A stretch of DNA of 64,000 nt. It comes from Cinnamomum chago (Eukaryota; Streptophyta; Magnoliopsida; Laurales; Lauraceae). The translations under genes were made by a program, and so were the position numbers. The stretch is taken from positions 71,542,501 through 71,606,500 of the forward strand of contig CP142459.1 in the NCBI GenBank assembly GCA_038049695.1, read 5' to 3'. This document shows positions 4,129-42,781 of this stretch, in pieces. Within the stretch, counting starts at the first letter, position 1, and each line of letters begins with the position of its first letter. Under the pieces are notes generated by a model. That model was not told where the DNA came from. It saw nothing but the letters and a program-made list of their open reading frames with translations, and made no database searches.

Positions 4129-5402
4129 CTAAAGATAGGCCGCGCCATCAACTTCAAACTCATGTTTAATTATATCTTCATTGGCATGCTGTTTTTGTCG
4201 AGCTTGAGCAGCACATGAATTCTCCTTAAACAACTCGAGAATTTGATTGCGACTTTGCAAAGCTTCTTCGGCATGTTGCTCATTAGTGGTACTGGAAACG
4301 TAAGTCACTGTTGGAGGAGATTGTTCATAAACTGCTTCATGCGGAATCATGCTGTTTGATTCATGGTAGGTACCACTTACCAGGTAGTATTATATCATCA
4401 CCTATATCCCAAGGAAAATATGTGATCATAGCCTAGAAAACACCTTGAATAAATTTTCAAGCAGCGATTTACTTGTTTCGTTTGACCATCAGGTTTCAGA
4501 TGGTATATGAAGACATTTGTAACTTGGGCCTATTTCTTTACCGGAATTTATGACTAGAATTTGGGATGTTGGGGTTTTTTGGACATGATGTGACATCTTG
4601 TCCATTGACATTTGAAATGCTATGTTTCTTTCAGTAGAGTTTCAAATTCCAACCACTCAAAAGACTTTTTGGAATTTTTGGAATTCCATTCTATACCATT
4701 TGTAGGAATTTCAAATCCTCCATCAAGAAGAGGGATTTGGAATTCCACCTAAAGGGACAACTTTTGGAGAATTTGAAATTCTCCCAGACATGAATTCTTG
4801 AAATTCTGATAAAGAAACAGGCAATGTCATGCAGCATAAAGAATTCCTGCCTACGGAATACAGAATCTCAATCAATAACTATGGAATGTGACATATCATG
4901 CAGCTTAAAATTATATTAACAAATACCTTGATCACTATGGATGAGTGAGAGGGACAAAGTGTGTATATCACTAACATTTCCATTATTACAAAAAAGAAGA
5001 AGAAGAAGAAGAAGAAGAAGAAGAGATTTTCCCATGTGACTTAGGCAAGCCATCAATATAATCCAGGTAGACATCAGTTGATACACACTTAGGAATTGGC
5101 AACAGTTGGAGAGGAGCGATGGTGATATTGATTATCCTATACTCTTTTGGCATACATTACACTCAACAATATGTTGTTTAATTTCTTTTTGAACCCAACA
5201 CCTAGAGAACCTTGGAAATGCACTTGTAGGTCTTTAAATAACTGGAATTCCTATATTCATGTGAATCATGGAATGCTTTTAAGATTTCTTCATTCCAGCC
5301 AGATAATATATCATTATCAACCACTACTCGATTCTTAAAACGTAGCTGATCTTGTCTAAAGTACAGTGGTGAACTGAACCAGGCGTGTCTCATGCTTTCC
5401 AT
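4129..5402 (-). mobile_element. Degenerate Ty3/gypsy polyprotein relic (integrase part)
   Basis: Three blocks in order on the minus strand match plant gypsy polyproteins. At 5202-5402 RFKNRVVVDND leads to ILKAFHDSHE and LKTYKCIS, the region before and inside the integrase zinc-finger. At about 5033-5098 YLDYIDGLPKSHGK matches the start of the integrase core (usually MDFIEGLPKS). At 4129-4350 AVYEQSPPT leads to a charged stretch, the integrase C-terminal part. Stops and frame breaks separate the blocks and an AAG microsatellite interrupts the core. No LTRs were found nearby. It is dead and lies in the 5'-UTR intron, antisense to the gene. Confidence 0.8.
4990..5025. repeat. (AAG)n microsatellite
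   Basis: About eleven consecutive AAG/AGA units within the gypsy integrase relic. Confidence 0.95.
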
Positions 5403-6270
5403 GTAATTTTGTCCATTTGGATCCTTTATAGCTTCATTTCTGAATTCACTGATACTTTGGTTTGGGAATTGAAATTGATATAGCTGTTAATTAAGCTTCT
5501 TAATCATGACGAGAATGGCCTTTTGCAACTTAGGTCTCAACTCGACTCTTGTATTCATGTATTAAATGCTTCTACTTGGTTTCTTTTTTGTTACCATGTT
5601 TCTTTTGTTTGGTGATGTCTACTCTTCAATCTCTCCTATCAGTTAATTTTCTGCTGAAATTTCTACACTCGCTCATTTTCTATCATTAGTTTTATGCATA
5701 TTTCATATTCTGTGCCATGTTATATTGGTTACTTTCTGGTCCTGCATGTATTATGGTTGTGTGGTGTTATGATTTATCTTAATATTAAAAAAATGATTTA
5801 TTGATTTTCATTGATTTATTTAATTTTTTTTGTTCTGTTTTGTATTATATTTAAGTTGGTTCATCAGATTCTGCTTTATATTCTGCATTGTGAAGTTGGT
5901 TCATGAGATTAAGCGCACTGTGTTTACTGACATGAGTAATTTTTTTTGGTATGAGCTTAGTCATTAGTGTGGTCGATGAGCTTGTAGTCTTGTATTTTCC
6001 AATCCATCTTGCATTACATTATCTCTGGGTTTATTACATTTTTTTTTATAATAAAATTGGTTTTAATTTTGTTTATTTTCTTCTAACAAGTTGTCTGTTT
6101 GGATGTGGTAGTAACTGTTCTTTGGTTTCTGGAAAGTCTCTGTTTTTTTTTTCCTCCCTTTTCTCTGATTGTTTTCCTGTGCAGAACCAGTAATAGTTAT
6201 AATGTGGATTTCATTTTGTTGTTTAGGGTCACAAATACAGAACTGGTTTGGGTTTAAGTGATTGAGGAAG

Positions 6271-9200
6271 ATGTCATCACCGTATCCTGTCCTTTACAAT
6301 CGACCAATTGATCAATGGAAGGTAACAGAGTTGAAGGAGGAGCTTCGGAAACGGAAACTCATGACGAAGGGCTTGAAGGAGGATTTGGTGAAAAGGCTGG
6401 ATGAAGCGATTCACAATGAGAGGGAATCTGTTAATGAAGAACTGGGCAATGGTTTTGGTCTTGACTCTGATTCTGAGGTCAAATCTGAAGATTCAAAGTC
6501 AAAGCCTATAGGTAGTCAAGTGGTAGAAGAAGCTACAGGCTATGTTGTGGATGAAGGTGAGAAGGTGGATAATGTGGATGTTGCTGCTGCCACTGTTGAC
6601 ATTGGTGGTGACAATGCCAATGCCGAGACTGCTCAAGAGGACCAAATTCAAGATGGGAAGTCAATGGATGGTACTGATAAAAACAGCAAGGTGGACGAAA
6701 CCGTCATCCATACCGTTTCCATGGAAAACAGTGTCATCGACGGACAGAGTGTAGAAACCAAATTAGAATCCAGTGCTCAAGTGACAAAGTGCAATATTCA
6801 GGTAGAGAATGAGGATTCAAAGCCTCCCTCTTTTGAAGATGTCAAGTCCAACATTTCCGATCCAAATAACCAGGTATCTGAGGTCAGCCCCATTTTAGGG
6901 TTTCAAGTAAAATGTGAGTCTATTTCTACTGATTCTGTCTCAATTAATGAAAAGAATGAACTAAAGGATAATTTGAATGCTGATAATTTGAATTTAGAAC
7001 TAGAAGTTGTTAAGCCAGAGATGGTGGAACCATCATCCCGTGATGTTCCTGCTATTGGTGGTGATTTACATTCATTGGGTGATCAAGAGCCAGGTGAGAA
7101 CCAGGGCTCTATGGAAGAGTTACATGACACCAATGCTGCAACTGCAGACCTTATCAAGAAAAATGAAAGTACAGATGCAGGGTCACCAGAGAAACTAAAT
7201 TTAGACCGAAGTTCGGGTGATGATTCTCTGGAGGAGGATGTTTTGGACAGTAAACAAATTGATTCCAATCATAATTCTGATGAAGCTATTGATAGGAATG
7301 AGTCGACGATGGAATTGCCTGTTGTAAAAGAGGGAAGCGCTGATGTAGCTATGGAAGTTGGGCCATCTCCTGGCAAGAGGGTTCCTGATGAAAAGAACCA
7401 TAACCTGGAGATTTCCTCAGAGAAAAGAAAGCTTGAAGGTGACCTTCCCCACCCTCCCCCCCCCCCTCCCTCCCATTATAAGATTCTGTGATTATAAATT
7501 GTGCTTCCTTTTATAAATTTTCTTCTCACAGGAGAAAAGTCCCTCTTTGTTTACTGAATGAAAATATAGTAGCTTCTTTGTTTATTTTTTAATTCATATG
7601 ATCTGCTGCTTCTTTTTCTTGGGTATATTTCTTGTTGGACTCTTTTAAGGAAAAATTTCTCTATACTGTTTTTAACTTTTAAAATTTATCAATAAATCTG
7701 CGATGCTGTAGTTTGGAATAATGACTTCTGTTATCATCATTTTTTTTATTATTGGGCTTCTGAGTTGATGATTCATCAAATGCTTGTGGAAGGTAACTAT
7801 TGTGATTAGCAGTAAGCTTCTGCTAATAGGACTGCTACATTTCTAGAAAACCCTATATTTCTTGAAAATGATGTGATCAGCAATGCTGTGTATGATACAA
7901 CCTTTACTTTCTAAAAATTGCCTTCGAACTTGCATGGTTGGACCAAGAGAATTTTGAAAGCTAGCTCTTATGGCCTTTTGTATTTAATGTCTTCACAGAT
8001 CAGGAACTGGTTGGGAACAGTGAGCCTTCAAAGAGGCAGCGCCGATGGAACTCAGAAACCATTAAAGTTCCTGAGCCACAGACCACTAACCTGACACCTT
8101 CAAGTACACCTAAGGATGCATTTCAGTATACTCCTAGACGTGCATTCACCAGATCTGACTCAACAGTCAGTGGAGATTCTCCAAAAGAGCGCATTGGTAG
8201 GTGCTTGTGGATTTGGTGTATTAATTCCCAAGTTCACTAAGATTTTGTAACTTATTACTTCTATATTGGCAGTTCCAATATCACAGAAAACACCGACAAC
8301 TTCCTTGAGAATTGATCGTTTTCTGCGCCCATTTACTCTGAAAGCTGTGCAGGAGCTTCTGGCAAAAACTGGGACTGTGACTGATTTCTGGATGGACCAT
8401 ATTAAGACACACTGCTATGTGACGGTATATTATTGTTTCTTCCTTTCAACTTTCTTGAATAACTTACAACTGGCAAGGAGAGGATTTCAAGGCTATAGGG
8501 GTGGAAGCCACCTGACTTAGAGAAGCTTGGGATATGAAAATGAAGGCTACTTAGAGAACCATAATATACTAACTAGTGAGTAGTCGATGCGGCCCTGATC
8601 AGAGACCATAATAGGTTGTGCTTCTGGATAGCACTGGCCAAATCCTCATGGGATTCTTAGTAAGACAGGCAGGCCAAGCTCCCGGATGGGGCTGGCTGAA
8701 TCTCCAAGGGCTTCCATGCACACGAGCACTCTCAATTGAAGTGGCACTCACAACTAAAGAGAGACTGAACAATTTCTTTATTGAAGTAATGAAAGATGAT
8801 CTTACCCAAAGGAGGTACGTTCATAATTATAGGTTTCTGATGTGATGTTCCTTCCTAGGTAAATCCCATCCTGACTACACTTCCTAATTTTCTCCTAATT
8901 TATCTCAAATTAGAAACTTACTAAACTAATCTATATAAAAAAACCTCCTAACTAAAGAGTCTTAATTGACTCAAAATTCCTTTGCCAAACGTCCTTGAGT
9001 GCATTAATTCATCCAAGTCTCGGTTGCATTGGACCACATAAATCAATTGAAGCAGTTATCGTGCCCTTAGTTAACAGCAATGGCACCACAACAATCCTAT
9101 ATGAAAGTTATTTCTTTGTAAATTCTCATTAAAGAATCTACAATCTTCTTTGGCCACTAGCTATCTTATCATGGTATTACTTGCATTGCATCTTGGACTC

Positions 9201-9826
9201 AGGGCAATGGTGATTAGTTTATCTGTGCCCACATTCATCTATGAGCATCAAACCATTCAACTCACCACAGGCCCAAGGTCTTTTAGGCATACAAAGTGGC
9301 ATTGCAGTTAAAGTCTTTGTTGTAGGATGGGGTCTGACAAGATGACTTTGTTTTTATGTAGTATTCATCTGGGGAAGAAGCTGTAGCAACTCGGAATGCC
9401 TTGTACAATCTGCAGTGGCCTCCGAATGGTGGACGCCTTCTCACAGCTGACTTTGTTGATCCCCAAGAAGTGAAGACACGTGTTGACGCCCCTCCACAGT
9501 CTCCTGTACCTGTCAGCCCCAGCGCGACTGCTCCTGCCCCCACTTCCCAACCTCAACCTGCCTCTCACCAACATACCCTCAGGCAGCAGTTGCCGCCCCC
9601 ACCTCCCCTCCCACCACCACCACCACCACCTTTGTCTGACCCACTGCCAGTGAGGGAACGGCTTTCTCTTCCTCCACCACCACCAAAGAAACCTGACCCA
9701 CCTATTGTCACACTTGATGATCTCTTCAGGAAAACCAGAGCCACCCCTAGGATCTACTACTTGCCACTATCCGAAGAACAGGTCGCAGCAAAGCTGACTG
9801 CACAGGCCAGAAGCAGGAAGGACTAG
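6271..9826 (+). CDS. ACINUS: ACINUS-like SAP domain / RRM / RSB-motif protein (ASAP complex subunit)
   Basis: Four coding exons: 6271-7438, 7999-8196, 8273-8424 and 9362-9826. They join in frame with GT/AG borders to 660 residues. The start is the ATG at 6271 (MSSPYPVLYNRPIDQWK); the reading frame is open a little upstream but has no earlier ATG. A SAP domain (DNA/RNA-binding helix-turn-helix) covers about residues 12-47. A long acidic, Ser/Asp-rich linker follows, then KRQRRW, an RRM-like fold (RIDRFLRPF to RLLTADFVDP), a Pro-rich stretch, and a C-terminal RSB motif (TLDDLFRKT...IYYLPLSEEQ) that in this family binds RNPS1/SR45 and SAP18. The domain order matches Arabidopsis AtACINUS (At4g39680), a nuclear ASAP subunit tied to the exon junction complex and alternative splicing. 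Failure to splice the first coding intron would add 17 codons and stop at 7491, removing the RRM and RSB motif. Confidence 0.92.
8425..9361 (+). other. Largest coding-region intron of the ACINUS-like gene
   Basis: About 940 bp between GTATAT and TTATGTAG, splitting the RRM-like domain between VT and YSSGEE. Open frames inside it (8438-8520, 8618-8845) show no recognisable domain. The middle (8600-8800) has a mixed-GC texture unlike the AT-rich flanks and may be an old insertion, but I cannot name it. Confidence 0.6.
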
Positions 9827-11973: not shown

Positions 11974-12394
11974 CTATTTTAATTTCAAACTGATAATGGC
12001 ATCTCTAAGAAATATTGGAAGGTGATAAAGAAACCCTGAGATCATGGAAAAACGGCCATAGGAGAACCATGTTGGTGGGCTTTCCTTCAGTACATTTTCC
12101 ACCGTCTTCTTTGCAAAGTCTTCTGCTGGAGTCGCATTTGGGTTCACTGAGAACTTGGCTCTGGCGCGAATCAGGTGCTCAAATGGCTTATATAGCTTCC
12201 ACTCAGGCAGCTTACTATAACTAGCTACTGATTTGTTTCCTATGTTTGTTTTAATTGCACCAGGAACCACAGTCATAACATCAATGCCTGGGTAAGAGCA
12301 TTTCATAATAAAAAGACATATCCAGTTTTTTTTATTGGTATATGATATATCTACCAATTCCCTATTTGACTTTATTTTATATATGAGACTAGCT

Positions 12395-12728
12395 CTCCTA
12401 AACTCAAGCTTAAGATAAGGTAAGCTCAAGTGTGTGGTGGGGCCCACTTGGAGACCCGTATGGAGATGGAGATGAGGGGGATTTCAAGGACTCCCTGCGA
12501 TCTTCCTCTCTACAAAAAATCAGTCACAACCGTGATTTTTATCATCTCTATATAGGCCCAAAACTTTAATGGTCAATAGTTCATTCAGATCGAATTTGAC
12601 CGAAAGTTAGTGGACATGTACAATTTAGAGGGGTCATTTGTTTGGTTCATTTGGATGGACCAAAGATGGGCCCCACAAGCATGAGCTTACGAAATTTTCT
12701 TTTAATCTTGAGCTTAAGAAAGCCTTGC
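12395..12728. mobile_element. MITE-like inverted-repeat element in the last SDR intron
   Basis: The left side reads CTCAAGCTTAAGATAAGG, then GTAAGCTCAAGTGTGTGG and GGGGCCCA. The right side, on the opposite strand, reads CTTAAGCTCAAGATTAAAAG, then CGTAAGCTCATGC and GTGGGGCCCA. The two arms are an imperfect inverted repeat about 40-50 bp long around a roughly 230-bp centre. It sits exactly where the missing LEL-PF codons of the SDR would be expected. Exact ends and target duplication are uncertain. Confidence 0.55.
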
Positions 12729-13786
12729 TCTGTATATACATACAAAGTGGCATTTCCCCATGGGTCAAAAACTAGAAAGTGGGTAATGGATAATAACACA
12801 TATCTTAACAGAAACTGTATTGATAAAAAAAATATATATATACTTTATACCTCAAGCTATCTGTCAAGGCATGAAGAGCAGCTTTAGATGCAGCCTAGGC
12901 ACCTATCCATGGTCCAGGTGCCAAAACAGAGACACTTCCAACATTGACTATCTTTCCCTTCCTCCTAGTTGCCATGTGAGGAACAACTGCTTGGATCAAC
13001 CTCATGGGACCTTTTACCCATAATAATAATAATAAAAAAACATAAACAGAGCAACCATAAGTAACTCTAATTAGCAATATATGCTTCACAAAACACAAAT
13101 TCAAAACAGGATAACACAAAATATAAAACCTGTCCCTGCCAAGAAATATCATTATCACAACATCTAAAACTCACTAAATTCTAAAAAAAACCCTTGACTT
13201 TGAGATTATTTTAAAACACGCCTCTAAATGGGTCCCCCCTTCCTCTTCCCTTCGCCCTTTTCCTCGTCCTTTTGAGCTACCATTTTTCTTGCATTGGTTG
13301 AAGAGACTAGAACACCAAATTTCTTTCCAAGATATTAAGGATATAGAAGAATTAACTTCTTCTAACCTCTTGAAATTGTGTTTAAGAGAGAGGACAAAAT
13401 TCCTTGCCCTAATCAAAGTTTTTTCTTTTTTCGAAAATTGTTTGAAAGCTAAGGGGGTTTCTGAAAATTTAAAGGACGGTGCGTTTTCTTTTCTTTTAAA
13501 AATATAACCCACAGGGGTTTCTAGAAAAGTCCGGAACATCAAGCCAAAAAGCTGATTCAGACCTGCAACCAAACGAGTCCCGATGCCATGAGTGTCCCAC
13601 ACACTTACCCTGAGTGGGATGTGGGCCCACCTGTTAAAAATCACCATCATTCAAATAGTTACCTTTCAAGAGGCAAGTCTTAAAACTTTACTTTTAACTG
13701 CAGTTGGTTCTACTATGAGAGGATATAACTATTGACAATGTAATTAATGAATCTTATGCAGTAATTACATTATTATATGCTACAAT

Positions 13787-14075
13787 TCAATACCCCTTAC
13801 ACATTTAATTTCTAAATTCATGACTAAAAGTCATTAAACGTCACCAGAGCCGTTTGACTGTGTGGTACAATTTTTTTTTCTTTTTCTGCCTTGGATCCCA
13901 TAATATTATGGATTTTTAAAAATCCATAATGCCAGGGGATCTACATGTTAAAAGTTGAAAAACTACTTGGATACCATGATATTATGGGATCCAAGGTCAA
14001 ATGACTCTGGAGATATTTAGTGATTTTTAGTTATGAATTTGAAAATTGAATGTCTAAATGTCATTGAATGGTAAA
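13787..14075. mobile_element. MITE with nested inverted repeats in SDR intron 1
   Basis: Outer arms of roughly 80-95 bp (about 13787-13866 and 13977-14072) are imperfect reverse complements (for example CATGACTAAAAGTCATTAAA against TTTAGTGATTTTTAGTTATG). Inside them a tighter pair, CCTTGGATCCCATAATATTA and TGATATTATGGGATCCAAGG, encloses a short self-complementary centre (GGATTTTTAAAAATCC). There is no ORF. It is a typical non-autonomous foldback. Confidence 0.75.
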
Positions 14076-14747
14076 ATCTCCTATATTAAATGAAACCAAC
14101 TTCTATTAAAGTAAAATTTAAAAATATATCGACCAAAAGGATAGTACTCATTTTCACCTGTGTGAACTATGAATAAGTAGGACATCCCATTCAGGCATTC
14201 ACAGATAAACAAACCCACACAACAAATTATTCTCCAAAACTAGGATTTAAATCAAAGTTCATCATCATTACAATAAGGAAAAAAAAAATCATCAATTCAA
14301 TTTAAAAGAGAAGAAGGAGAAGAAAACCAAAATGAGGAGTTGTTATACCATAGACATTGGTATTGAAAGGAATCTCAACCTCAGACATTGGAATCTCCAC
14401 TACAGGCCCAACACAGTGCACCCCTGCATTGTTAACCAGTATATCAATCCTCCCAAACCTCTCCAGAACATTTCTCACTGCTCCCTCTATGCTCTCTTGC
14501 GACCCCACGTCCAGCTCTTGCAGAAAGATCCGAGTGTCATCCTCAAGGCTTCTCATGGACTTCAGAGATCTTGTCGTCGCGACTACCGAGCACTTCTCCG
14601 AAGCGAAGGCCCGGGCGAGAGCGCTGCCTATGCCGCCGTCGGAGCAGCCTGTGGTCAAGACGACCGGTTTGTCGGAAACTGCCATTAAAACTGTGTAAAT
14701 GATGTAAAGATGAAGTTTTGTTTTTGGTGGAAGAAGAAGGTGGAGAG

Positions 14748-14770
14748 GAATGATATAAATAGAGAGAGGG
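14748..14770 (-). promoter_or_regulatory. TATA-like box upstream of the SDR start
   Basis: On the minus strand CTCTCTATTTATATCATTCC lies about 70 bp upstream of the ATG at 14685. Its position and sequence fit a TATA box for the SDR gene. Nothing else marks the start site. Confidence 0.45.
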
Positions 14771-16829
14771 GATTGGATCTGGGACTTTCTGTCGTCTTGC
14801 GTCGCTCTTCTGTTTATTTATTCGTTAGTGAGGGAGATGGTTCGAGACGACATGTTCGAACGCATGGGATGAGATGATGCCTACGTCGGTTCTTATCTTG
14901 TCAGGATGAACGAAGTGTTTGTGTTCACATTGACTGTCGGTGGTATGAGTCTGGGCAAGTCTGGAGCCTTCTAAAACCTTTCATCATTAAAATGACAAAA
15001 TAAAAAGGAAGCAAGGTTTATTGGATGTTAATGAATAGAGAATTTCTAAATGCACCCACTTCCATTGTTGAGCACATCCACATTAATTTTTTTTCTTTTT
15101 TTATCAAAATACTCATATGTGAAATTCCGACTGTTTCATTGACTTTATTTATGCACGGATACACTCATCAAACGTACACGAATCTGTGTATCGGTGCATA
15201 ATGCGAACATATTTTTTTGTTTTGGGATTCCATTTAAGAGAGAAGAGGAGAAAGAAGTGGAGAATAGGAAAATGAAGAGAAAATAGGAGAGAGAGGAAAA
15301 AGGAGAAAGAAGAGTGAAGAGGAGAAGGGGCAGACGACAAACTAAAGAAGAAGGAAGTGGAGAAGAGGAAAAGGAGAAAGAAGAGGGAAGAGGAAAATGA
15401 GCAGTTCTGAAAAAAATCGCGAGTGGGCTCAATAAAAAGGGGTAACTCATATTTTTAATGTGGTGAGCTCATAATGTGGGTGGGCTTAGCAAATGAAGTA
15501 GGTGCATTTAGAATTTCAGTATGATAACTAGGGTTACTCGGTTGGTTGCCAACAGGGATTAATCTGTGGACATGATGCTTTTCCCACGCCCTGCGCCTTG
15601 CTGCTTAGGGATTAATCTATGGACATGATGCTTTTCCAGCGCGCGCGTGTGCCTGTGTGGACTCCCTTAATTTCCCTATGGGTGTAAGAGCTCTATTGGG
15701 TCTTAACTCCCTTGATTGAGGTGCCAAGGAAAAAGAAAAAAAAAACAATTTAATCAAAACACATAAGGGCCTTGTTTTATGGCATTGAATGCATAGAATT
15801 GTAGGAGTGGTTACAAATAAAGAACCAAAAGGTGAACATCCAAAAATAACCATTAGATTATTTTCCTTTCATAGAATCATAGTAATTTAATACCAAGGAA
15901 AGTCAAAGGTCCAATCTACATCTCTATCTTATATGTTTCACATATGACATCTTTAATAATTTTTTGGGAGGGCTAATTTCACTATGAATTCTTATCTTTT
16001 TAATTTTGATGTACTTTTGGCGAACAAATAGGCCCACAATAAAATTTTAAAATAAAAGCTTTATTAATTCTAAAATAGACTTTCCATCAATGTACAGTAA
16101 CTTATAGCTGAGGAAGATGATTCTATGCTTTAGCTCCAGCTCTGCTCAGTCACGTTGTTATCAATGGTCTTTGAGAATTATATTTTTATAGATGAGTAGA
16201 CCATGAATTGCTGCTAACATTCCATCGAACTAGTGGGCCCAACAAACTCTGCAAGTGTTTACTGGCATAATGTCAAAGCCATAGAGGATCTAAATCTCTT
16301 TGAACTATATTACATATTGTGGCATTAGTGGAAAGTGGCGAAAATTAACCATTAAAATGTATATTGCATTGTGTGCACTTTTGTCTAACTAATAGTAGAG
16401 CCAGCCAACCCTCTATATATGTAAATGGTGCCCTCTGAAAATCTTAAACTGCCCAAAATAGTAGTTTAGGTTCTCATGTGTTAGCTAGGAATGGCCCTGC
16501 CATCAATTGTGATTAAAGTTAAAAACTTAGAGGGGGTAGATCAGGCTATTTCATTCACAATACATATATAAGTGGATACTTGATAGTATGTTTGAGTGGT
16601 TTAGATTTAGAGGTTGGCCATGTTGTTGGGTCTGAAGGGGTGCCTGTTATTAGCATTTAAATCTAATTGAAGACCTTTTTTTTTCTTCATTTTATACATA
16701 GTGAAATGCTCTAGGCAATAATAAAAAAGGGGAATGTTTAAAACCACAGACCCTTTCTTGCAGTTTCACGTGTAGAGTGTTCCTTTCTAATTGTTCATAT
16801 TAAGCATCCATAAGTTTCCATGGATTTTG

Positions 16830-16868
<39 letters not shown>
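14771..16868. other. Intergenic region between the two SDR copies, left part
   Basis: No gene is supported. It holds a purine-rich stretch (15236-15400, GAGAAGGA-type, producing artefactual Ser/Leu-rich frames on the minus strand), a 31-bp direct repeat at 15554-15584 and 15607-15637, AT-rich filler, and an (AT)n tract at 16835-16868. Confidence 0.6.
15554..15637. repeat. 31-bp direct repeat, period 53
   Basis: The sequence beginning AGGGATTAATCTGTGGACAT is repeated 53 bp downstream with one mismatch (CTGTGG versus CTATGG). The copies are 15554-15584 and 15607-15637. Confidence 0.9.
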
Positions 16869-16870
<2 letters not shown>

Positions 16871-17041
16871 GGAATGTTCATATGCATCTATCCCTCACCA
16901 TAGGGTGAGGGATGCTTCCATAAATGGGGGGTTTCAAGTACACCTTATGTACTTGAAATCCCCCTTTTGTACTTGAAACCCCCCATTTAAGGAAGCATCC
17001 CTCACCCTATGGTGAGGGATAGATGCATATGAATATTCCCC
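16869..17041. mobile_element. Foldback MITE inside an (AT)n tract
   Basis: Nearly the whole 173-bp element folds on itself. The left arm starts GGGGAATGTTCATATGCATC; the right arm read on the other strand starts GGGGAATATTCATATGCATC. The arms carry CCCTCACCATAGGGTGAGGG, which is itself nearly palindromic, and continue through AAATGGGGGGTTTCAAGTAC. The element is flanked on both sides by TA dinucleotide runs (16835-16868 and 17042-17061), consistent with insertion at TA. A diverged relative is at 27427-27548. Confidence 0.9.
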
Positions 17042-17061
17042 ATATATATATATATATATAT

Positions 17062-17396
17062 TATCTTTGAGAATCCTATGAACATAGAGATTTTCACCTC
17101 TGCAGCTTTGAATATATTTTCAATTGTCACTACGTAGTTTTGTAAATCTCCTCAATATCATCGAAGAATTGAATTCATAACTCCATTTAGTATTATATTG
17201 TAGTTTCTCTATCTTCACCAAATGCTGGCCAATATTTTATCAGCGACTAAAGAATACTTTACTTTGTTTATACTATTTCGAGATGCTCATGATCTGATTT
17301 CAGTTGTAAAAAAAAGATTATCTCCAAGATGCCCGCCACAATCTGAGTTTTTGAGGAGAATTGTATCCACGTGTGTTAGCCTTTTGACCGACACAA

Positions 17397-17429
<33 letters not shown>

Positions 17430-17750
17430 TTCAGTAATCACCTACATGAAGTATGTGTAACGATGATCAAGCCTTATCACCACATGAAATAGACATTTTT
17501 TTTAAAAAGTTTTTTGGATCCATATGCGCTCTCATATTTTGAGCAAACTTGACTCACTCGAGCAAACTTGATACAGGTACATACATTAGTGGTAAGTGAA
17601 AATTTGGCCAATCGAACGGACCGAGTGGATTTTGGAATTTTCACATAAATTTGGAGTACTTCTTGTAAGTATGAGTACTCTTTCAATTAGTTTTGAATTT
17701 AAACCTCCATGGGTGATAATTATGGGGACCATGCAATACACACATTAAAT
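17062..17750. other. AT-rich intergenic stretch
   Basis: No gene or recognisable repeat beyond an A-run followed by (TA)n at about 17394-17429. The boundary with the left LTR-like copy is not sharp. Confidence 0.5.
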
Positions 17751-18932
17751 ATAAATGTAATGTCCATCGAGAATAACACGTGCGTTTTGGAAACCAATGG
17801 TTACATCCAAACGGTTGGTTTAGATTGAGACATAATTGAGTAGAGTTATATATGAGTAGTAAGATCTCTCATTATATCGTATTTCACATTATTGCGTCCC
17901 GATCTAGTGAGATTGGTACTATAGTTATTCTCTTTTCTTGTTATGAAGAGAATTATTGAAATGAATTGAATTGATCATTAGAAATACATTAACCCTTAAG
18001 TTTGACAATACCTAACTACTGTACTAGAACTCTAAATGAGTTCAATGAATTGATAAATGAAATAAATGACTAATCCTGCTGCAGCAGATGGATTTGGGGG
18101 CGTTCCGGAGCTCCGTGGTGATACTAGTTGTCCCTGGCCTGGATACTAGTAAGTCTCACATAATCCGATCATATCTATGGGTATTGATTGATGCCTTCTG
18201 TTTGGAAGATGAATCCTTCCTTGAGGGAAGATGGTAAATGAAATGAATGAATGAAAATTATGATAGTGATTATCTTGTGAGTGTCTATTGATCAACTCTT
18301 AAGTTTACCTATTGTCATTTTAGGAATTATCTAGACTTGTCTAGAATGGTAATTGTTACCAAATGGATTTAATAAATTCAGTATATGTGTATTAACATGT
18401 GCTATTACAAGATTTGTTTATACATTGTTGAACCGTCGTGTTCATTAGTGTTGTTGATGGCATTACATGCCCGATTGCCGCTATCGGTGTAGCAGCGCCC
18501 CCAGCGCCAGCGAATGAGACCGCTCCGGTTCATCCAGGAGGACTAATTGAATGGAATAGACGAAATACCATTTGATATGAGTATTCGAGTGCGAAAAAGG
18601 AATTATAACATTTTGAGAAACGTTTTGAAAGGTCATTTTGTACATTCATTTTTGGAATGTAAGTAATTGTTATTGTCTGGTGTTGGATATGCACCGATTG
18701 ATAAACGATGATGGAAATGATACATGTATAAGAACTTGTTTTTGTATACATGTAAATTCGTAAAATGATATTGTCAATTATAGATATTTCCGTAAAGTTT
18801 GTGTATTTGTCAAGTTTATTGGGAATGATATCCCTTGTGTATCCCGTTTTAACTTTGGTTAATTCGGGGTTTACGGGAGTAAGTATGGAGCCACGGCCCG
18901 GGGTTATCGTAATTCGGGCCCGGGTCGTGACA
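17750..18932 (-). mobile_element. LTR-like element, truncated copy, inverted relative to the copy at 19147
   Basis: Read on the minus strand it begins TGTCACGACCCGGGCCCGAA at 18932 and follows the plus-strand element that starts at 19147 through many shared blocks. Examples are the block around CCAGGGACAACTAG, the block around GGATTCATCTTCC, and AAGAATAACACG-type sequence near 17770. Similarity fades left of about 17750, so the distal part (over 1 kb in the other copy) is missing or too diverged to see. It directly abuts the SDR fragment at 18933. Confidence 0.8.
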
Positions 18933-19070
18933 GAAGAGCAGCTTTAGATGCAGCTTAGGCACCTATCCATGGCCCAGGGACCAAAACAGAGACACTTCCA
19001 ATATTGATAATCTTTCCCTTCCGCCTAGTTGCCATGTGAGGGACAACGGCTTGGATCAACCTCATGGGAC
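18933..19070 (-). pseudogene. Second SDR copy: exon-2 fragment with stop at the catalytic Tyr
   Basis: The minus strand translates as [37 protein letters not shown], stop, AASKAAL. It is nearly identical to exon 2 of the SDR at 11974-14685. The acceptor context GGTAAAG|GTCCC is kept. The codon for the YxxxK tyrosine is TAA here, whereas the first copy has TAG. The exon is cut at 18932 by an LTR-like element before the HALTD part. Its N-terminal exon lies beyond another LTR insertion at 21941-22110. No C-terminal exon was found. Confidence 0.9.
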
Positions 19071-19146
19071 CTTTACCAATAGAAAAAAAAAATTTAAAAG
19101 CAAAGCAACCATAAGTAACTGAATTCTCAATAATGGAATGGACAAC

Positions 19147-21641
19147 TGTCACGACCCGGGCCCGAATTACGATAACCCAGGGCCGTGAGTCCATACTTAC
19201 TCCCGTGAACTCTGAATTAACCGAAGTTAAAACGGAATCAACAAGGGATAACATCTTCAATAATCCTGTCAAATACACAATATTGCGGAAACACATATAT
19301 TTGACAATATCAAATTTCGATTTACATGTATACAAAAGAATAAGGTCCTTATACATGTATCATTCCTATCATTTTCTTGTCAATCGGTGTATACCAAAAA
19401 CACCATACAATAACAATTAATTACATCTCAAAATGGTTAACAAAATAACTTCTCAAAACATTTTTCAAAATATTATAGTTCTTTCGCGCACTCAAATACC
19501 CATATCAAATGGTATTCCAACCGTGCCATTCGTTCAGTCCGCCTGGAAGAACCGGAGCGGTCTCCTCCGCTGGCGCCAGGGGCGCTGCTGCATCGGCAGT
19601 GGCAAACGGGCCTGTGATGTTATCAATAACACTAATGAACACGACGGTTCAACAATGTATAAACAGATCTTGCAATAGCACATGTTAATACATATACTGA
19701 ATTCATTAAATCCATTTGGTAACAATTACCATTCTAGACAAATCTAGATAATTCCTACAATGACAATAGGTAAACATAAGAGTTGATCAATAGACATTCA
19801 CAAGATAATCACTATCATAATTCTCATTCATTTCATTTCATTTACCATCTTCTCTCAAAGGAAGGATTCATCTTCCGAATGGAAGGTATCAATCAATATC
19901 CATAGATATGATCGGAATATGTGAGACTTACTAGTGTCAGGGCCAGGGACAACTAGCATCACCACGGAGCTTCGGAACTCCCCCAAATCCATCTACTGCA
20001 GTAGGATTATTCATTTCATTGTTACCTTTAGTAACTGTTCATTAATGAATTAATTCATTTATTGTATTGTTCAGTTCAGCTCAGTAACGAACTTAAGGAA
20101 TTACTAAGTAGTGTCAGACTCGGAAATCGCACCATAGCTATTAACTCTATCCAAGTTCATAATCAAATTCCTAAACCAAACAAATGGGTGAAACGTTTGT
20201 TATTTAATGTACGTGTTATTCTTGATGAACATCACTTTGATAGTAGTTTGTACATTCAAATAACCGATGCATGTTTAGATAACACATTTAAAGAATTAAT
20301 ACTTAATTCGTTACCATTCTTTTCCTTTAATTTCCTTAATCTTGATAATCTTAGATTAGGGCATAATTAGTTCTAACACTAATTTATAGACCACTAAGAC
20401 TCATAGAAAACGTAATTGGTTCCAAAATGGACCGATTTCAACCTTCGGTCCGATCGATCGGTCTGAAATCATGTCCCAGTTATGGACTGTCTGATCAATT
20501 GGTCTGTATGTCCAATTGATCGGACCGAAAAACCTTTCAGTTAAATGACAGTCCGATCGATCGGACCTGGGACGAGTTGCAGGTCCGAAACTTGATTTTT
20601 CTCTCCCCTTTCCTTTCTCCATTCATTTCATCCACAACCTGCATTAAACATTGGAACCTCCTATTCTCTCCTCATACACCATTCATCCACAACAATACTT
20701 CTAATCATTCATTACCCATCTTAATCATTCATATACAATTCCATAATCTCATGGAAATTTACAAGAATCCATGAAAACTCTATGCATTTCTACAATGATT
20801 AACACTAATCACAAGAAATGTTTATACTTACCTTTCTTGAAGTCTAGTTAACTCAAAGCCCTTTGTTTTGCTTGCTTTGAGATGAAAACCCCCAAATGAA
20901 ACTCTAACTCTATGAAAACACAAAATACACAAATCTATAAGCCATTTGTGCTAGAAATCATGCCTAAGCACTCCTTATGACTTGTAAACTCATTAAAAAC
21001 TCCAAGTACTTACTTGTAGTTCAACTAGAGGAGCCTCTAGCTTTAATGAAGAGAGATTTGCACTTCCTCTCCAATGAACCAAAAGGGATGGTGAAGAAGA
21101 TGAAGATGGTGAAGCTAGCACCCCTTTAATCATACATACAAGCTCCCTTCTTGATGCTTGATAAGGAAAATGGAAGAAGATGAGAGGAATGAGTCTAGGG
21201 TTTGGTTGAAATGAGGAAATGATTCATTCCATTCTAATATAAGACCCTCTTACACAAAAACCACCTCTTAATAAGTCAAATTACATTTTGAGTCAAATGA
21301 AGTCTTATTTGGTCCATTTGAGGTCAAATGGAGTCTCGTCTATTATGAAAGTTAACGTACTACCCGAGATATACGCGTTGGTATCAAGGATTTTCGTATT
21401 TGACGAAATACGTGAAAACTCGTATTTACAGAAAAGTCCTTAGCCTACCTTGTTTGAGTCTAAACTCACTTGAACCAATTCAATTTCATCTTAGTTCATT
21501 CTATTATGCTTAATGCATCATTTGAGACTAATTTCTCTCTCTTTGGTCATTAACCTTCATTAATACGATTATTCATGCTTAATGAGCATTAATCCCAATT
21601 AATTAGCTTTAATCGTGATTAGTTTGGGTCGGGGTGTAACA
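19147..21641 (+). mobile_element. 2.5-kb LTR-type element (solo LTR candidate) inserted in the second SDR copy
   Basis: It starts TGTCACGACCCGGGCCCGAA and ends GGGTCGGGGTGTAACA, the usual form of plant gypsy LTR termini (TGTCACGACCC to GTGTGACA). Flanks are ACAAC (19142-19146) and ACAGC (21642-21646), a 5-bp duplication with one mismatch. There is no coding domain, primer-binding site or second direct LTR, so a large solo LTR is the simplest reading. It interrupts the intron between the SDR exon fragments. It carries a set of symmetric palindromes at 20448-20567. Confidence 0.75.
20448..20567. repeat. Four spaced palindromic motifs inside the LTR
   Basis: GTCCGATCGATCGGTC (20448), GTCTGATCAATTGGTC (20489), GTCCAATTGATCGGAC (20510) and GTCCGATCGATCGGAC (20551). 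The last is a perfect 16-base palindrome. Start spacings are 41, 21 and 41 bp, which is itself symmetric. The truncated left copy lacks this region. Confidence 0.85.
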
Positions 21642-21940
21642 ACAGCATGCACATAAAGATCTACAAATGGAAACATTACTACTTTAATGGAGAATGAGCA
21701 TTTCAAATCATACAATGGACAAAGCTTTTAACAATCTTGCAATGAGAAAAGATGCTACAAAACCCAGAATAATTTCTAGAGCATCAAACCAAATTTTGAT
21801 TCAAGCCAACAAACTAAAACTCTTCACAAAACAACAACTGTTTTCTCAAAACCAGGACCTGAACAGAGTTGATCGATTAGAGAAGAAACTTACCAAAAAA
21901 CACAAGAAACGAAAATTCAATTAAAGAATAAGAAGAAAAC

Positions 21941-22110
21941 CAAATGAAGAGTACTTATACCATAGACATTTGTATTGAATGCATTCTCGACCTCAGACAG
22001 TGGAATCTCCACGACGGGGCGGACGCAATGCACCCCTGCATTGTTTACCAGTATATCAATCTTTCCAAATCTCTTGAGAACATTTCTCACCGCTCTCTTC
22101 AGATGCCACA
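21941..22110 (-). pseudogene. Second SDR copy: exon-1 fragment
   Basis: The minus strand reads [45 protein letters not shown], close to the first copy. The donor after NVYG is altered in sequence context but a GTATAAG-like motif is present. Upstream, CTGGATGTGGCATCTGAAG still encodes LDVASEE in another frame, so a small deletion before AVRN caused a frameshift. The Rossmann-fold start (TGxxxGIG) is absent. Together with 18933-19070 this is a dead duplicate, split by a 2.5-kb LTR-type insertion. Confidence 0.9.
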
Positions 22111-25100
22111 TCCAGAATGAGCATGCATGATTAACAAATAAATGTAAATAATTAACAATTAATTTAAACAATTAGTGAGTGAAGTGTGATCACAAGGTGG
22201 GGTACTCATGATAGGTCCTACCTACAATATCATCCCGGTTTTTTAGATTGGGTCCTTATAATGTGAGTGACTATGTTCCACCGCGTATTTCTTCTAGCCT
22301 GAGAAGAGTGGTTTGAACTTCAACCTCCTAGTTTCTAAAAATCTTGTTGAAGTTGAATGATTAATGTGAAATATCCCACAATCCTTATCTATTTTAGTGA
22401 GATTTAGTCGGATTTTGTGTGACAACTGCATTGAAAAGTCGGTAGTGGTGTAGTAAAATATTATATCTAATACAATTTAGAAAAAAAAAAACCATTTGTT
22501 TCACTTTTGTCCAACCCTAGCCCTTGAGTGTAGGGTAAGGGCTTACGTATTATAAGTCCACCGTGGGCTCTGAGCGCTTTGGCTCAACCTAGGAATGACC
22601 CACATATATAAGGGTAGGGTAAGGGGGCCCGTTGAAAACCCTAATGAAAATGTCTAATGCTCGTTGGATGGATTGGGCCTAACTATTACAGCTGACGATA
22701 TAGGCCAAGTGGGCTAGTTTGGTCCAGTTTGATGTGGCTCATGAACACCCCTAGCTTGAACTAATCCAGCATCTAGGGCTTCTAATGTAAAAATAAATTA
22801 AAATTTTATCTAATGGCTAATTGCCTTTAGGAATGCAAGTTAGGCGAGAACCCCCAGTGAGATAAGGATATATTGAGGTTTTCAAATTGCAATGAATAAC
22901 AATCCATTTCATGATTTTCTATAAAGAGAATCTTTTAAAAACTCATAATCAAAATATTTATAATAATGATTTTTGAAGGGATTTTCTTAAACAAAACGAA
23001 AAGGCCAACTTCACTTATTATATATTAAAGCCGAAGGTTTTGGATTCAACTTTGACTAAATTCATTTCAATTTTTGACTTATATATTGAGCCTTGGTAAA
23101 AAGCTAAAAATGTATGGGTTGTGAGACTCGAACTCAAGATTTCTTTTATTTTCAAATAAGTAACTTAATCTCTACACAACACAGTTAATACTAATATATA
23201 ATTATTTATCAGAAAAATCTTAAAAGTAGTAAGATAGAACGGGAACTCCAACCACGTGGGTCATACCAAGCTAAGCATGGATTACTGTGCTAGTTTATAT
23301 TTATTAAAGTAACAAGAAATTAAAATAACGTTAAGAGCTTACAAGTTTACAGAAAAAAATTGGTTGAATGCCTCCTTTCCTTAACAAATATCTGATTTGC
23401 AATACAATGAAAGAATAAACATTTAAGTTAGCCAAAGTTTTATTATTTCTTCTTTCAAAAATAAGAAATTTACACAAATGGCTAGACAAAAGATGAGTCA
23501 AAGCCGAGGAATTATCTTCAAGTAAAAAGAGGCTAAGGTGTTTGGAAATTTTCAAAATAAGCTCTTATTTAATCTTTTAGAGCTTATTTAGTTTTCAAGA
23601 GTGTTACATAAACCTCTAATTGAATCCGTCATTTGATTATAAATAGAGGTTCACGTTCTAAAAAAACAAGAGAAGGGGACCTTTTGGCATACAATCAAAA
23701 TGCTTACGGAGGATAAGGTCCAAGTTCTATTCTATTGGTCTAAATTTAATGAATATCATTTTACTCTGACGTATATCAGTACATATGAGTCAAACCAACA
23801 TAAAATCAACTTGAACTTGATCGACACTATATTGGAATTGGATTGTGGTTTTTAGCCCAATATTGGTTGAACTATAGCCTAACTTTTTTAGTGTGGTTGG
23901 CATATTTAGTATGAATAAAAGTACATAGGATCTGCAAATTAGATGGGCGTCTGCCTTAATTTTAGGGCCATGTCCAGGTGTGGTCGTAAACTCAAGCCAG
24001 ATAACGAAAAGGTTCGTGAATGGTTCACAATCTTTGGCCAGGCTAGACCCAGACCATAAAAAAACCATCATGGCTAGACTCCACCCTTGTGATCACATTT
24101 CACTCACTAATTATTTACTGCTTTCATGTAATTGCATTTATTTGTTAATCATGCATGCCCATGCATTATCATGTAGACCGGACTCTCAACTTCTGATCTT
24201 GATCTTGATCTTGATCCTATCCATACAAAAGAAAGAAAAAGGAAAAAAAAAAAAAAGAGACCGAGAGAAAGACCGCAGGTTTACCACAGTATGCATCGTC
24301 GGTATACCAAAAATTGTAAATGCAAGGTTACCGCCCATAGGCCATATAGACGGCGGTAAGCCTATAATTCCTTTGTTCTTCTAATTCCTTTCGGGAGAGT
24401 TGTAGAAACTAAAAAGAAAAAAGCAAGTTATTCAATTCATGTGAATTACAAGCTTATCTTTCATCATTATTCATTTTGCAAGCAACGCATGAGATGTTTA
24501 AAGTCCTATAATCCCATCCGGCCTATTATATTATAATATATGAAGCCAACTGCATCCAATTGAAAATTTCAAATCTGATTTTGACCATTTTCAATTTTGA
24601 CCTCCACTAGTTATTATTATTATATTATTATATATGAAAGAGACCGATTTAAAATTCAAATCAACTCCAATTGATTTTGACCATCTCCCACGACTTTAAC
24701 CTAATCAATTCCAATATCCAAGTCTATTTTAATTTTATTTAATCTAATTAAAAAAATAAAAAATCATTTAATACTCTGTCCTCGTCTCTCCCTTTCATTG
24801 ACCTGTGCTAAGCATGGGGCATTCTGCTAGTCGTCATTTGAATTTGAATTGGTCCTGATCCAATCATCATTAAATCTGGGTTACAAATCATTAAAAATAG
24901 CTTTCCAGAAGTATTAACAAAACACAAAAACCACATTATTTCGCATGTACAATTCCTCTGATCTGCCAGCCACCCAAGTATGGACTGAGGCATTCCAGTG
25001 GTTGAGGGAGGTTGCTCCATAAGAGTGGGGTGGACCTCAACTACCACATTGACCTCACCCAACAGTAGGAGGTACATGACTTATGATGATTGATGAGAGT

Positions 25101-26092: not shown

Positions 26093-28850
26093 AGGGAAAA
26101 ACTTAAAGGACCTATTTATTTCGCACATGTCTGAAATTTCTGACACTGGTCAAAAACATGTCTTTAGAGTATTTGGGATCCTTTGATTAAACGTTGAAAC
26201 AGTAAAAATCAACTTTATGAAATGTTTATTCTAACTTTTTAAATTCTCTGTACTCGAGCATTTTGGAAAGGAATGGGGGGCAATATTTGGAGAACTCATA
26301 ATTATTTAAGAAAATAATTTCTTAGAATTCTTTGACCACATTGGCTGTAATAGACCAAGGAGGAAAGTTGAAAGTAAAACTTAATACAACTGTCCTCTTG
26401 ATATTTCATAGTTTAAAAGACAAATTCTATATTTTCGTAGAGGAGTTTCCATTTCAATGCAAGAATCCTCTTTAATGTGACAGTATCATTTTGTTCACAT
26501 TTTCACCAATAACAGTCAATACGTCTACAAGGGTTCCTTATTAAGAGGCATGAGAAGCAGTGCGGGGGGTTGACCCCTGGGCAGAGTATGCAGTGCATGT
26601 AGGAACCCCATGGAGTTCGGATTAACTCCGAGATGATAGATTAGGTTAATTTAGAAATATATATATATGGGAAATTTTTAAAAACTCTTCATTTCAAAAA
26701 GGGTGTTTTCACTCCTTTTGATTTGTCCAATGAGATAATGCCACTTCACATTGTTTATGCCAACTCATATTTATTTACTCACCTTTATTATAGGAGTGTG
26801 TAGGAGAGAAAATAGGAGATGTGAAAGAGAGAAAATAAGAGATTTGAATTTGAGAGAGACTCTCTTGAGGTGCTCACGTGGATATAATATATCATTTAGT
26901 TGCCGTTTTAGTCCTTTTTTATCTTGCAAAGTGGGGCACACATTTGGATTAAGCAAAGCCCTTTACAACAAAAATAAGAGGGTCCCACTGCGGGTTCACA
27001 TAATGATAACCCAAATAATTCATCTTGAATCCCGACCCCTACATGGATTTATCCTTCAAATCTTATTTTAATATGAGCGAGTCCCACCATATGATTCAAC
27101 ACATAACGAATATAATCGATGCCACGTGAAAAAATATGATGGATGCCACAAGACACATACGTGATTGATTGGATTTTGAATATACCTACTTTAACAGAGA
27201 AATTAATTAAGATTGATTTGATTAGCTACTTTTAAGGATATGAGATTGGCTAAGTAATAAGAGAAGAACCAATCTCTAACTTGCCATTTGTGTTAAATCT
27301 CATTATCTTTATTTATATTGGATGACATGACACTTTCATAGGCTCAGAAGAAGGGGCGTTTTCTTGCAAATAACGTCCAGGGAATTTTGTAGGGTGACCC
27401 TATATATATATATATATATATATATAGAATATTTATGTATATCCATTCATCATCATAGAGTCATATATGGTTATATGCAAAAAGGAAAAGCCATATAAGT
27501 GTCCCTCATCGTATGATGAGGGATGGATGCACATACATGAATATCCCCATATTATATATATATATATATATGATAGTTTACCATTCTCTCCCATATAAGA
27601 AAGATAGAGAGGGTGTCACTTCTTCTCTCTCTACGAGCTCCAAAAGAGAAGTGAAAAGGGAAAAATCTTCTGGGGTGCTTATCTAAAAGTTCAAATGCTA
27701 TTTTCAAGATTGATATTTTGAATCTTCGACATAGAACCTGCTAAGAATTCCTCAAATGCCTGCTATCAAGTAGAATTTTATACTATGATTTTGAAACTCA
27801 TAATAGAATTCCAAATGCTTCTTAGTTTTCTGTGATTGAACATCGACCTGATAGCGACCACATGTGCAATGTATCCCACAATAAGGATGGTTGAGAAAAT
27901 TTTAGCCATCTAATAAATATTCAACCTTTTCTTCACCTAGAACATTGGCTGTCCTTTAATTCTTTACATGTCTACTGATTTGGAAGCTACTGCTAAGTGC
28001 CTTTCCATTATGCAATGCATCGTTATGCTACATGTCCTCCAAATGAGTGGTCAGATCGCTCTCTTCCATGCCACACAATAAAACCTTAGGGGCAAGGACG
28101 GCTAGACACAAATGAGTGGATCAATTCCACTCATGGTGAGGGAATTAGGTGAGTGTGGTTGAATCTGAATGGGATGACAATCAATGTTCCATCCCTTCTA
28201 TCATTAAGAGGCTTGGTAAGAGTTTTTATTATTATTCTATTTTCACTAAAAACTAGTTTAAATAGATTTTTGAACAATACTACAGTTACTCTCGAACAAA
28301 TCCCCCCCCCCCCATGTCTACTTTCACAAAAAATCATTTTCTCAATTAAATAAGAAACAGTGGCCCACCTAGAAGTTTCTAGAAGTTTGTGGAGTGGCAT
28401 ATGTCTAAAGTTTGAAATCTACTTTAAATTTATCCAATGAACATTTGTGTGGATTTAGCGATCTAAAATAATCTCATTAATCAAAGACCTCGAGCGTACC
28501 AACGTAGTAAAAAAATAAAAAAACAATACCTGCAGGCAAGACAGGTCCGGAAAAACCGTTCACATTGAAACACATATCTGACTTTTCATTTGTGGGTCTA
28601 TCAAATAAATTTGAATGATAGAAATAACTTTTGACTAAATTTCGTCAATTGAGGAACCCATAAAAGACTTTTCTTACGTTGATCAATCAATCAATCAATT
28701 TAATAACTTAAGATGGAAACAAATTCGACTAAATAAGAAAAAAAATTCCCTCAATCAAAGAGTAATGCAGGATAGTGATCTTCAATGTGTGGATGGCCCA
28801 TTGATGGATTTATTTTGACCATCCTAATGACTGAAATCTGGCTCTCAAAT
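26093..28850. other. Intergenic region with a MITE relative
   Basis: No gene is supported. It contains a foldback MITE at 27427-27548, a C13 run near 28301-28313, and AT-rich DNA with phrases such as CAATCAATCAATCAATC near 28682. Short frames here (for example 26751-27071, 28131-28400) have no recognisable domain. Confidence 0.5.
27427..27548. mobile_element. Foldback MITE, diverged relative of the 16869 copy
   Basis: It lies between (TA)n runs (27401-27426 and about 27551-27572). Its right half read in reverse (GGGGATATTCATGTATGTGC, then CATCCATCCCTCATCATACG) follows the 16869 MITE arm. The left arm has lost the GGGG end. Central CCCTCATCGTATGATGAGGG is a near-perfect palindrome. Confidence 0.75.
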
Positions 28851-28989: not shown

Positions 28990-30900
28990 GTCGCTCCAAG
29001 TCTTCGCCAAAAATCGTCTATTCGTCTCCTCTTCTCTCTCCTCAGAAAACCCTAATTAGGGTTTCTAGATCTTCTTCTCCGTTTTCGAACAATCAGGTGT
29101 TTTGCTCTTTTTCCTTCTTCGATTCATTTTCTTTCCTGATTCGAGATCGATCAGATTGCTCAAAATTGGATCTTGTAGTGTTGATTTTGCAGAGACTTCG
29201 TTACGAGTTCTTCCATTTTGGGGAATTCGAGGGATTTTTCTGAACAGGTGAATTTTAGATTTTTTTTTTTTGAAAATTTAAGTTTTGATCGGATTAGTAT
29301 GCCTTTTTTTTTTTAATTTTAATTTGACTTTTTTCGTTGATGATTGATGGAGTTTATTTTAGGGTTATGGGACTTTAGAAGGAAAATTAATTCTAGTGTT
29401 TTTGTGGAAATGTTATGTTCTTATTACCTTGTTTGGAATTAGGGTTTTGAATTAGAAATTTTGTGTGCGTCTGTGTTTCTTTAAGTCTGCTAGGAAGATT
29501 CTTGAATTTTTATGTTTTGATATGATTACCATGCCCTTTTTTCCCTCTAATTTTCTGTTGGTGGAAACTTGTTGGAGGCAATATTGGTTTTGTTCTTTCT
29601 TTTTTTTTTTTTTACAAATTGGGTTGAATAAAAATGGTTTTTTTTTTTTTTTTTTTCAAGGAAGATCTGTTGGGATTTGTTCTGATTTTTTGAGGTTTCA
29701 ATTCTCTCATATCTGATCTTTCATTATATCGGGTTGAGACGTTTAAGTTAATTTCATGTTGAGAAGAAGGCATGTGTGATTTTTTATTTTTATTTTATGT
29801 GTTTTCTCAGTTGTTTATGACATTGATTTATCTTAGGAATGTGTCGTGGCAAGTTCATTCGGCAAAAATGATACAAATGCTTCTTCATTTTTTTTTTCCG
29901 AGGAAGCACACAATAAATTCAATTGATAATTTAGACATTGGTGCTACTGATTTTTCCTCCTAGTGAATGTTTAATGGAAGTTTTGGAAGTCTGAAATAAA
30001 TTGCGTAGTTGTGTGCCTATTTTTCACAGTTTGTCAACTTCCAGTAGTTTACAAAGACTACATCAACCAATGAAATTCATTAGCGTTAATGGCATGGCCC
30101 ATAATGTTTTCAATTTTTTTATTATGAGATTGATGGAATGCCGCACTTATATTTTCAATTATTTGATTATGAGATTGCGGATTTCTTTGTCATTTTTAGT
30201 TTCTTTTGCTTTCTTTTTGAGACCCTTGAGCAGGAGGGCATACTCTTGATGCCCTTCATGCATATAATTAACATCCTTGTGATTTTTTTTCCTGAAAAAT
30301 TTGCATCCTTTTCTCTATACCACATTCTCATTATTGTTTGAGTTTTGTGTAATTTGTGACCAAAGGGCATCCTTTGAATGGGGTTGCAACTTTCAGTTGG
30401 GCATGCTCCAAGTGCACTGTACTGTGGGGCTGGAACATAATAAGTAAATGGGATCTTGAGCTTGTATGCCTTATATGTGCTAAAATGGCTAGCATTTTTG
30501 ATAATCCTAGCTGTGTAGCATCAGATCATGTGCAGTGTGGGATGCCACGCTGGTGCCTTGGCCTGTGTCTAGACTGCATGATACGTGACTTGTATAGGCT
30601 TCAGCACAAGGCAGGCAACTGTAGGAATGGGCATTTTATGGATATGCAATGCTTGGTTTAGGGACTTTTCCCCCAAACACTGCTGGTGTTAATACTTTTT
30701 GGCTGAGATTTTTCCAGCAGGTAAAATCTTTGGGTTTGCAATTAATTCCTTTTCTGTTGCTTACTATCAGATTCAATACTAGTGCTGTGGAGTTGATATG
30801 GTGATTTATTCAGCTTTTGCGACGTAGGGAATAAGATCATTTGACTGGAGTGGTGTGATGTGAAAAATCTCTAAACTAGAAGTGATCTTGAGGATTTTTG
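28990..30900 (+). promoter_or_regulatory. 5' leader region of the F-box/kelch gene with a palindromic telo-box
   Basis: CT-rich leader-like DNA (TCTCCTCTTCTCTCTCC) is followed by AAACCCTAATTAGGGTTT at 29047-29064, a perfect 18-base palindrome made of two opposed telo-boxes. A leader intron is likely: donors AACAG|GTGAA (about 29247) or AATCAG|GTGTT (29096), acceptors such as TTTTCCAGCAG (30720). The exact splice pattern cannot be chosen from sequence alone. The 30356-30661 frame is not supported as coding. Confidence 0.5.
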
Positions 30901-38386: not shown

Positions 38387-38801
38387 GGTAAGCCATATTG
38401 ATGGTTTGTGCATGAAAGCAAACAATGGTATGACCCTTCCTATAGTCGTTTTTACTTTGTTTTTTATGCAAATAAATGATGTTCTACCTCATCTGCAATA
38501 TGTGCAAAAAGTGGTTTAACCCAAACAACGTTATTTGGAAGTTTGGAATGAGAAAGATACCAGCAAAACACTAGAAAAGTCCCCCAGAAAGTGGCAATGC
38601 GGCACTACTTTAATCCAAACAACATTAATTGGCGGTCCCCCCCCCGCCCCCCCAAAAAAAAGGGTATAGGGTTTGATATCTATCTGAATGAACTGGACCA
38701 CCGGATCGAGGTTTTACTAATTTTGGATAGTGAAAACTTCTTGACCATGGAAAAGTGGGGTTGATGATAATCGGATCCTCCTTCATTGCACACCTCGGGC
38801 C
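38387..38801 (+). repeat. Dispersed repeat, copy A of a pair
   Basis: This stretch of about 415 bp is closely similar to 42782-43194 in the same orientation: both start GTAAGCCATATTGATGGTTT and share CAATGGTATG, CCCTTCCTATAGTCG, AGTCCCCC-AGAAAGTGGCA, ACCACCGGATCGAG and GAAAACTTCTTGACCATGG. A cytosine-rich run is central in both. No ORF is conserved. Class is unknown; probably a non-autonomous transposon. Confidence 0.85.
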
Positions 38802-42779: not shown

Positions 42780-42781
42780 CC

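Follow-up and report, generated by a model that had tools for sequence, protein, structure and literature searches.

Classical short-chain dehydrogenases/reductases (SDRs, Pfam PF00106, adh_short) are recognised by a catalytic tyrosine in the motif YxxxK. On the minus strand of the window, i.e. the whole 64,000-nucleotide stretch of Cinnamomum chago DNA analysed here, a classical SDR gene is present in two tandem copies, each with a stop at the catalytic tyrosine codon. These copies are like the known enzymes in their Pfam matches, and they share the exon borders of intact relatives in the genome except at the start of exon 3. They are unlike the enzymes in having a stop for Tyr; moreover, copy 1 is without the start of exon 3 and copy 2 is a fragment. 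We take plant 1-acyldihydroxyacetone-phosphate reductase-like proteins to be the likely kind of these SDRs. The other close comparison is with tandem and fragmented plant pseudogenes (PMC7935947). As described in the accessible part of that paper, these are likewise unprocessed with introns, arranged in tandem, present as fragments and disabled, whereas the pair in the window also coincides in the position of the stop. Among the literature matches listed, no paper resembling a stop coincidence in two copies was found, as judged by titles and abstract openings.

The pieces of both copies are listed in Table 1. The reverse-complement reading bore out the claim of the earlier note that the Tyr codon is a stop in both copies (TAG and TAA), and that the upstream Ser and the Lys are retained. 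The range 12851..19070 given there does span both second exons, but the gene pieces extend from 11974 to 22115. The other TAAGCTGCA of the window, at 4899-4907, gave no SDR reading in any of the three minus-strand frames. Pfam PF00106 was matched by exon 1 (E 1.1e-19) and exon 2 (E 5.2e-12) of copy 1 and by exon 2 of copy 2 (E 1.1e-9), all three exceeding the curated cut-off of 26.6 bits with the stop entered as X. The 25 NCBIfam families listed (of 211 matched) were all SDR-type enzymes, all under their own cut-offs. The column of the stop holds Tyr in all five PDB alignments shown (best 5 of 516 matches) and in 12 of 14 prokaryotic relatives, the remaining two having an alignment gap and a sequence that ends short of the site. 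The earlier note had also called for an alignment with intact family members elsewhere in the genome; this was run, and the codon is TAC in all three further members found (C3, C8 and C5). TAG and TAA are each one step from TAC. Judged by these alignments, the stop column is the SDR active-site tyrosine. Having TAG or TAA where classical SDRs have the Tyr of YxxxK, both copies would be SDR genes by descent and not SDR enzymes.

Table 1. Pieces of the two SDR copies and of the adjoining LTR-like elements, with positions in the window
Feature	Position	Strand	Description
Copy 1, exon 1	14349..14685	-	Open from ATG to donor GTATAA (337 nt); matched over 337 nt by three relatives
Copy 1, exon 2	12851..13010	-	160 nt, premature TAG; gapless alignment to three relatives
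Copy 1, catalytic Tyr codon	12895..12897	-	TAG; reads GCC TAG GCT GCA
Copy 1, expected exon 3 start and acceptor	12288..12307	-	20 coding bases, unrecognisable
Copy 1, rest of exon 3	11974..12287	-	314 nt (103 codons and stop), open
Copy 2, exon 1, 3' half	21961..22115	-	155 bases, 11-nt frameshifting deletion relative to copy 1
Copy 2, exon 2, first 138 nt	18933..19070	-	Truncated by LTR-like element starting at 18932
Copy 2, catalytic Tyr codon	18955..18957	-	TAA; reads GCC TAA GCT GCA
First LTR-like element	18061..18932	-	Starts TGTCACGACCC; truncates exon 2 of copy 2; positions cover the stretch resembling the second element, far end not located
Second LTR-like element	19147..21641	+	TGTCACGACCC ... 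GGTGTAACA; within copy 2 intron 1

Relatives were searched for in the 1.06-Gb, 14-contig genome, and all counts from this search are lower bounds. Exon 1 and exon 2 each occur in at least five places, namely the two window copies and contigs C3, C8 and C5. For exon 3 the search recovered copy 1, C3, C5 and, in two pieces, C8. By reading, C3 and C5 are intact and encode 277-residue proteins. The C8 member (region C8:31064500-31073500) is near-identical to C3 (333/337 and 158/160 bases) and is broken in exon 3, where an insertion of about 200 bp is bordered by a repeat of AGTGGAATCTTTATA; its exon 1 lies about 58 kb from its exon 2. The SDR gene family is small, with at least two members found intact in the genome.

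Copy 1 keeps 267 open codons besides the TAG and the missing start of exon 3. In the intact relatives exon 3 begins 20 bases earlier than the part recognised in copy 1, with LEVRPF or LELRPL followed by GIDV, and six residues are missing here relative to the PDB alignments (best 5 of 24 matches). When copy 1 is spliced to the nearest AG, the frame is shifted, reads SLRH* and ends at once. A microexon carrying the missing block was sought between exons 2 and 3, and none of the 10 AG...GT/GC candidates considered, of five lengths (8 stop-free ones shown), resembles it; this idea was rejected, the relatives placing the block at the start of exon 3. A search of intron 2 for an element with terminal inverted repeats yielded only an 18-nt, 83% pair and overlapping palindromes. 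Copy 1 thus has two lesions over about 800 coding bases. This load fits a gene that died roughly 0.015-0.035 substitutions per site ago; the upper limits, which depend on the assumed indel rate, are 0.055-0.125 substitutions per site.

Copy 2 is a fragment. The 5' half of its exon 1 is absent, the edge adjoining a repeat at 22117-22203. The remainder of the copy (the 5' half of exon 1 and exon 3) was sought in the window and elsewhere in the genome and gave no match belonging to this copy, within the sensitivity of a search whose counts are lower bounds. The two LTR-like elements are 86% alike over 882 aligned positions and lie in opposite orientation; the second has near-matching 5-bp flanks, ACAAC and ACAGC. 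They face each other head to head across 214 bp of SDR sequence. Both copies therefore carry disabling lesions in addition to the stop, and because of these neither copy is expected, from its sequence, to make an enzyme even if the stops are left aside. The copies are homologous to an intact gene, retain introns, lie on one strand and are close together, and both are classed on this basis as unprocessed tandem pseudogenes.

Several other features of the window were recorded. A near-perfect palindrome of about 220 bp, with 94-nt arms that are 98% complementary, occupies 16845-17064 and is probably a hairpin miniature transposon; related sequence is found at 27502-27575. A direct repeat of about 400 bp (38385-38788 and 42780-43188) is 84% identical. 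On the plus strand, open frames at 6262-9826 encode a SAP domain together with an RNSP1-SAP18 binding motif and resemble the plant Acinus homologue, and a 478-codon open frame at 30898-32334 has an F-box and Kelch repeats. An open frame on the minus strand (44201-44824) has a sub-threshold match to the Senescence domain. No part of the window matched an Rfam family at the gathering score.

The homology of the two copies is far beyond chance, since exon 2 with the adjoining intron matches at E = 3.7e-58 and half of exon 1 matches too. In exon 2, 10 differences were counted over 138 aligned bases, one of them inside the stop. Over the 95 comparable codons, which leave out the stop and gapped codons, there are 23 synonymous and 11 nonsynonymous changes (pairwise dS 0.42, dN 0.053, omega 0.13). 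About 24-26 nonsynonymous changes are expected under neutrality, and in 4000 neutral simulations run under each of three transition biases the number was never as low as that observed; for exon 2 alone, P was 0.009-0.019. C3 and C5, used as outgroups, assign 4 nonsynonymous and 7 synonymous changes to copy 1 and 4 and 8 to copy 2, leaving 11 unplaced. A codon likelihood model was then fitted to copy 1, copy 2, C3 and C5 (275 codons, the stop codon excluded, on a tree assumed from identities). Neutrality of both copies since the split was rejected without equal branch times (2 delta lnL 23.8, p = 6.8e-6), with equal branch times (p = 9.1e-6) and for exon 2 alone (p = 0.008). Without equal times, neutrality was rejected for copy 2 alone (p = 6.7e-4), while copy 1 alone, with omega 0.39, was compatible with omega = 1 (p = 0.17). 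Under equal times, omega was 0.30 for copy 1 (p = 2.7e-4) and 0.13 for copy 2 (p = 6.4e-6). The branch of copy 1 since the split was estimated at 0.53 per codon, or about 0.18 per site, when times were equal and omegas free, at 0.39 per codon without equal times, and at 0.16-0.69 per codon across all models fitted; the lowest of these estimates overlap the upper limits of the death age of copy 1.

Most simply, the stop of copy 2 is younger than the split, because copy 2 stayed constrained. The stop of copy 1 is, again most simply, also younger than the split, given equal branch times and the few other lesions. Our favoured explanation, to which we give a probability of about one half, is that a working gene was duplicated and that two independent nonsense hits later fell on one tyrosine codon. 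A classical SDR gene of three exons and about 277 codons would have given rise to two tandem paralogues that stayed under protein-level selection after the split, each dying later. The hits would have changed TAC to TAG in copy 1 and to TAA in copy 2. In addition, copy 1 would have lost the start of its exon 3, and copy 2 would have been cut up by deletion and by the LTR-like insertions. Of the two readings offered by the earlier note, a single ancestral stop, i.e. duplication of an already dead gene, is left without support by the constraint after the split, whereas two hits at one codon fit the data, as does a short gene conversion. Ancestral death would be the simplest source of a stop at the identical codon in both copies, TAG and TAA being one transition apart, and with branch times left free, neutrality of copy 1 by itself since the split is compatible with the data. 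Ancestral death is nevertheless unlikely. The pair and copy 2 were constrained after the split, and the constraint on the latter is enough to disfavour inheritance of a disabling stop by that copy. Ancestral death also predicts, for copy 1 at a distance of 0.1 substitutions per site, 1.6-2.4 further stops and, with frameshifts assumed at 0.1 per substitution, about 8 frameshifts, whereas one such lesion was found (P = 0.003). No further stop was found in copy 1, a result that is weak alone (P(0) = 0.09-0.19 at that distance). As for independent hits, two random nonsense hits would coincide with a probability of 0.043-0.078 in codons 59-165 of copy 1, a stretch slightly longer than the part kept by copy 2. 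There, 25 of 107 codons are one step from a stop and the Tyr codon ranks first to fourth in likelihood. The coincidence required, 4-8%, or 1.6-2.8% with the whole frame as target, counts against two hits; in a scan that seeks oddities, 4-8% would not be remarkable. In the conversion reading, the stop would have arisen late in one copy and been moved across by a short conversion tract, a transition then separating TAG from TAA. The copies are tandem paralogues a few kb apart, and the accessible part of PMC7935947 mentions both conversion in which pseudogenes take part and the concerted evolution of duplicates in tandem. Moreover, from -15 to +24 relative to the first base of the stop, +24 being the end of the shared part, the stop is the sole difference. 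Exon 2 also has fewer silent differences than exon 1 (6 vs 17; resampling P = 0.02, Fisher 0.012), and the 12 codons around the stop without a silent difference, picked post hoc, give a weak hint (P = 0.03 over both exons, 0.13 in exon 2). However, no stretch of silent identity is unusually long (P = 0.50 over both exons, 0.71 in exon 2), differences at -16, -22 and -23 from the stop would require a tract edge nearby, a tract spanning the whole of exon 2 conflicts with the constraint on that exon, and the intron flanks of both sides are similarly diverged (22-38%, in short, gappy alignments). Conversion, for which the support is mixed and weak, is a tentative second choice. We prefer two hits to it by about 2 to 1, a judgement and not a computed ratio, and we infer that the shared position is a coincidence.

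Explanations in which one or both stops do no harm, or do not exist, were also weighed. A plant tyrosine tRNA might read the stop as tyrosine, so that copy 1 would be active now or was formerly; the inserted residue would be exactly the catalytic one, and constraint did persist. In the TMV context, plants insert tyrosine at both UAG and UAA, and a change of the C after the stop to G in the TMV test sequence abolished readthrough, according to the accessible part of PMC2754532. Because a G, and not the permissive C of that TMV sequence, follows each of the two stops, this readthrough is hardly credible, the more so as the start of exon 3 is missing from copy 1 and copy 2 is a fragment. It is very unlikely that either stop, or both, came from a mistake in assembly or base calling, as the loci are separate, the stops differ, the neighbouring bases differ as expected of paralogues and other lesions are present in both copies. 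Equally improbable is a living copy 1 from which the catalytic exon is dropped, exon 1 being spliced directly to the displaced acceptor of exon 3. This join is open and in frame (216 codons by summing exons), and the same skip would shift the frame in the intact relatives because exon 3 begins 20 bases earlier there. If it were true, exon 2 could carry stops at no cost, and the surviving protein would be SDR-like but lack the catalytic Ser, Tyr and Lys. Exon 2 is, however, constrained in the pair.

With two independent hits as the favoured explanation, these results suggest that the same lesion position in two pseudogenes need not mean inheritance. The intact paralogues together with the codon model date the stops, most simply, after the duplication. 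Overall, the locus is a case of ordinary gene and pseudogene decay, a routine loss in a small SDR family.
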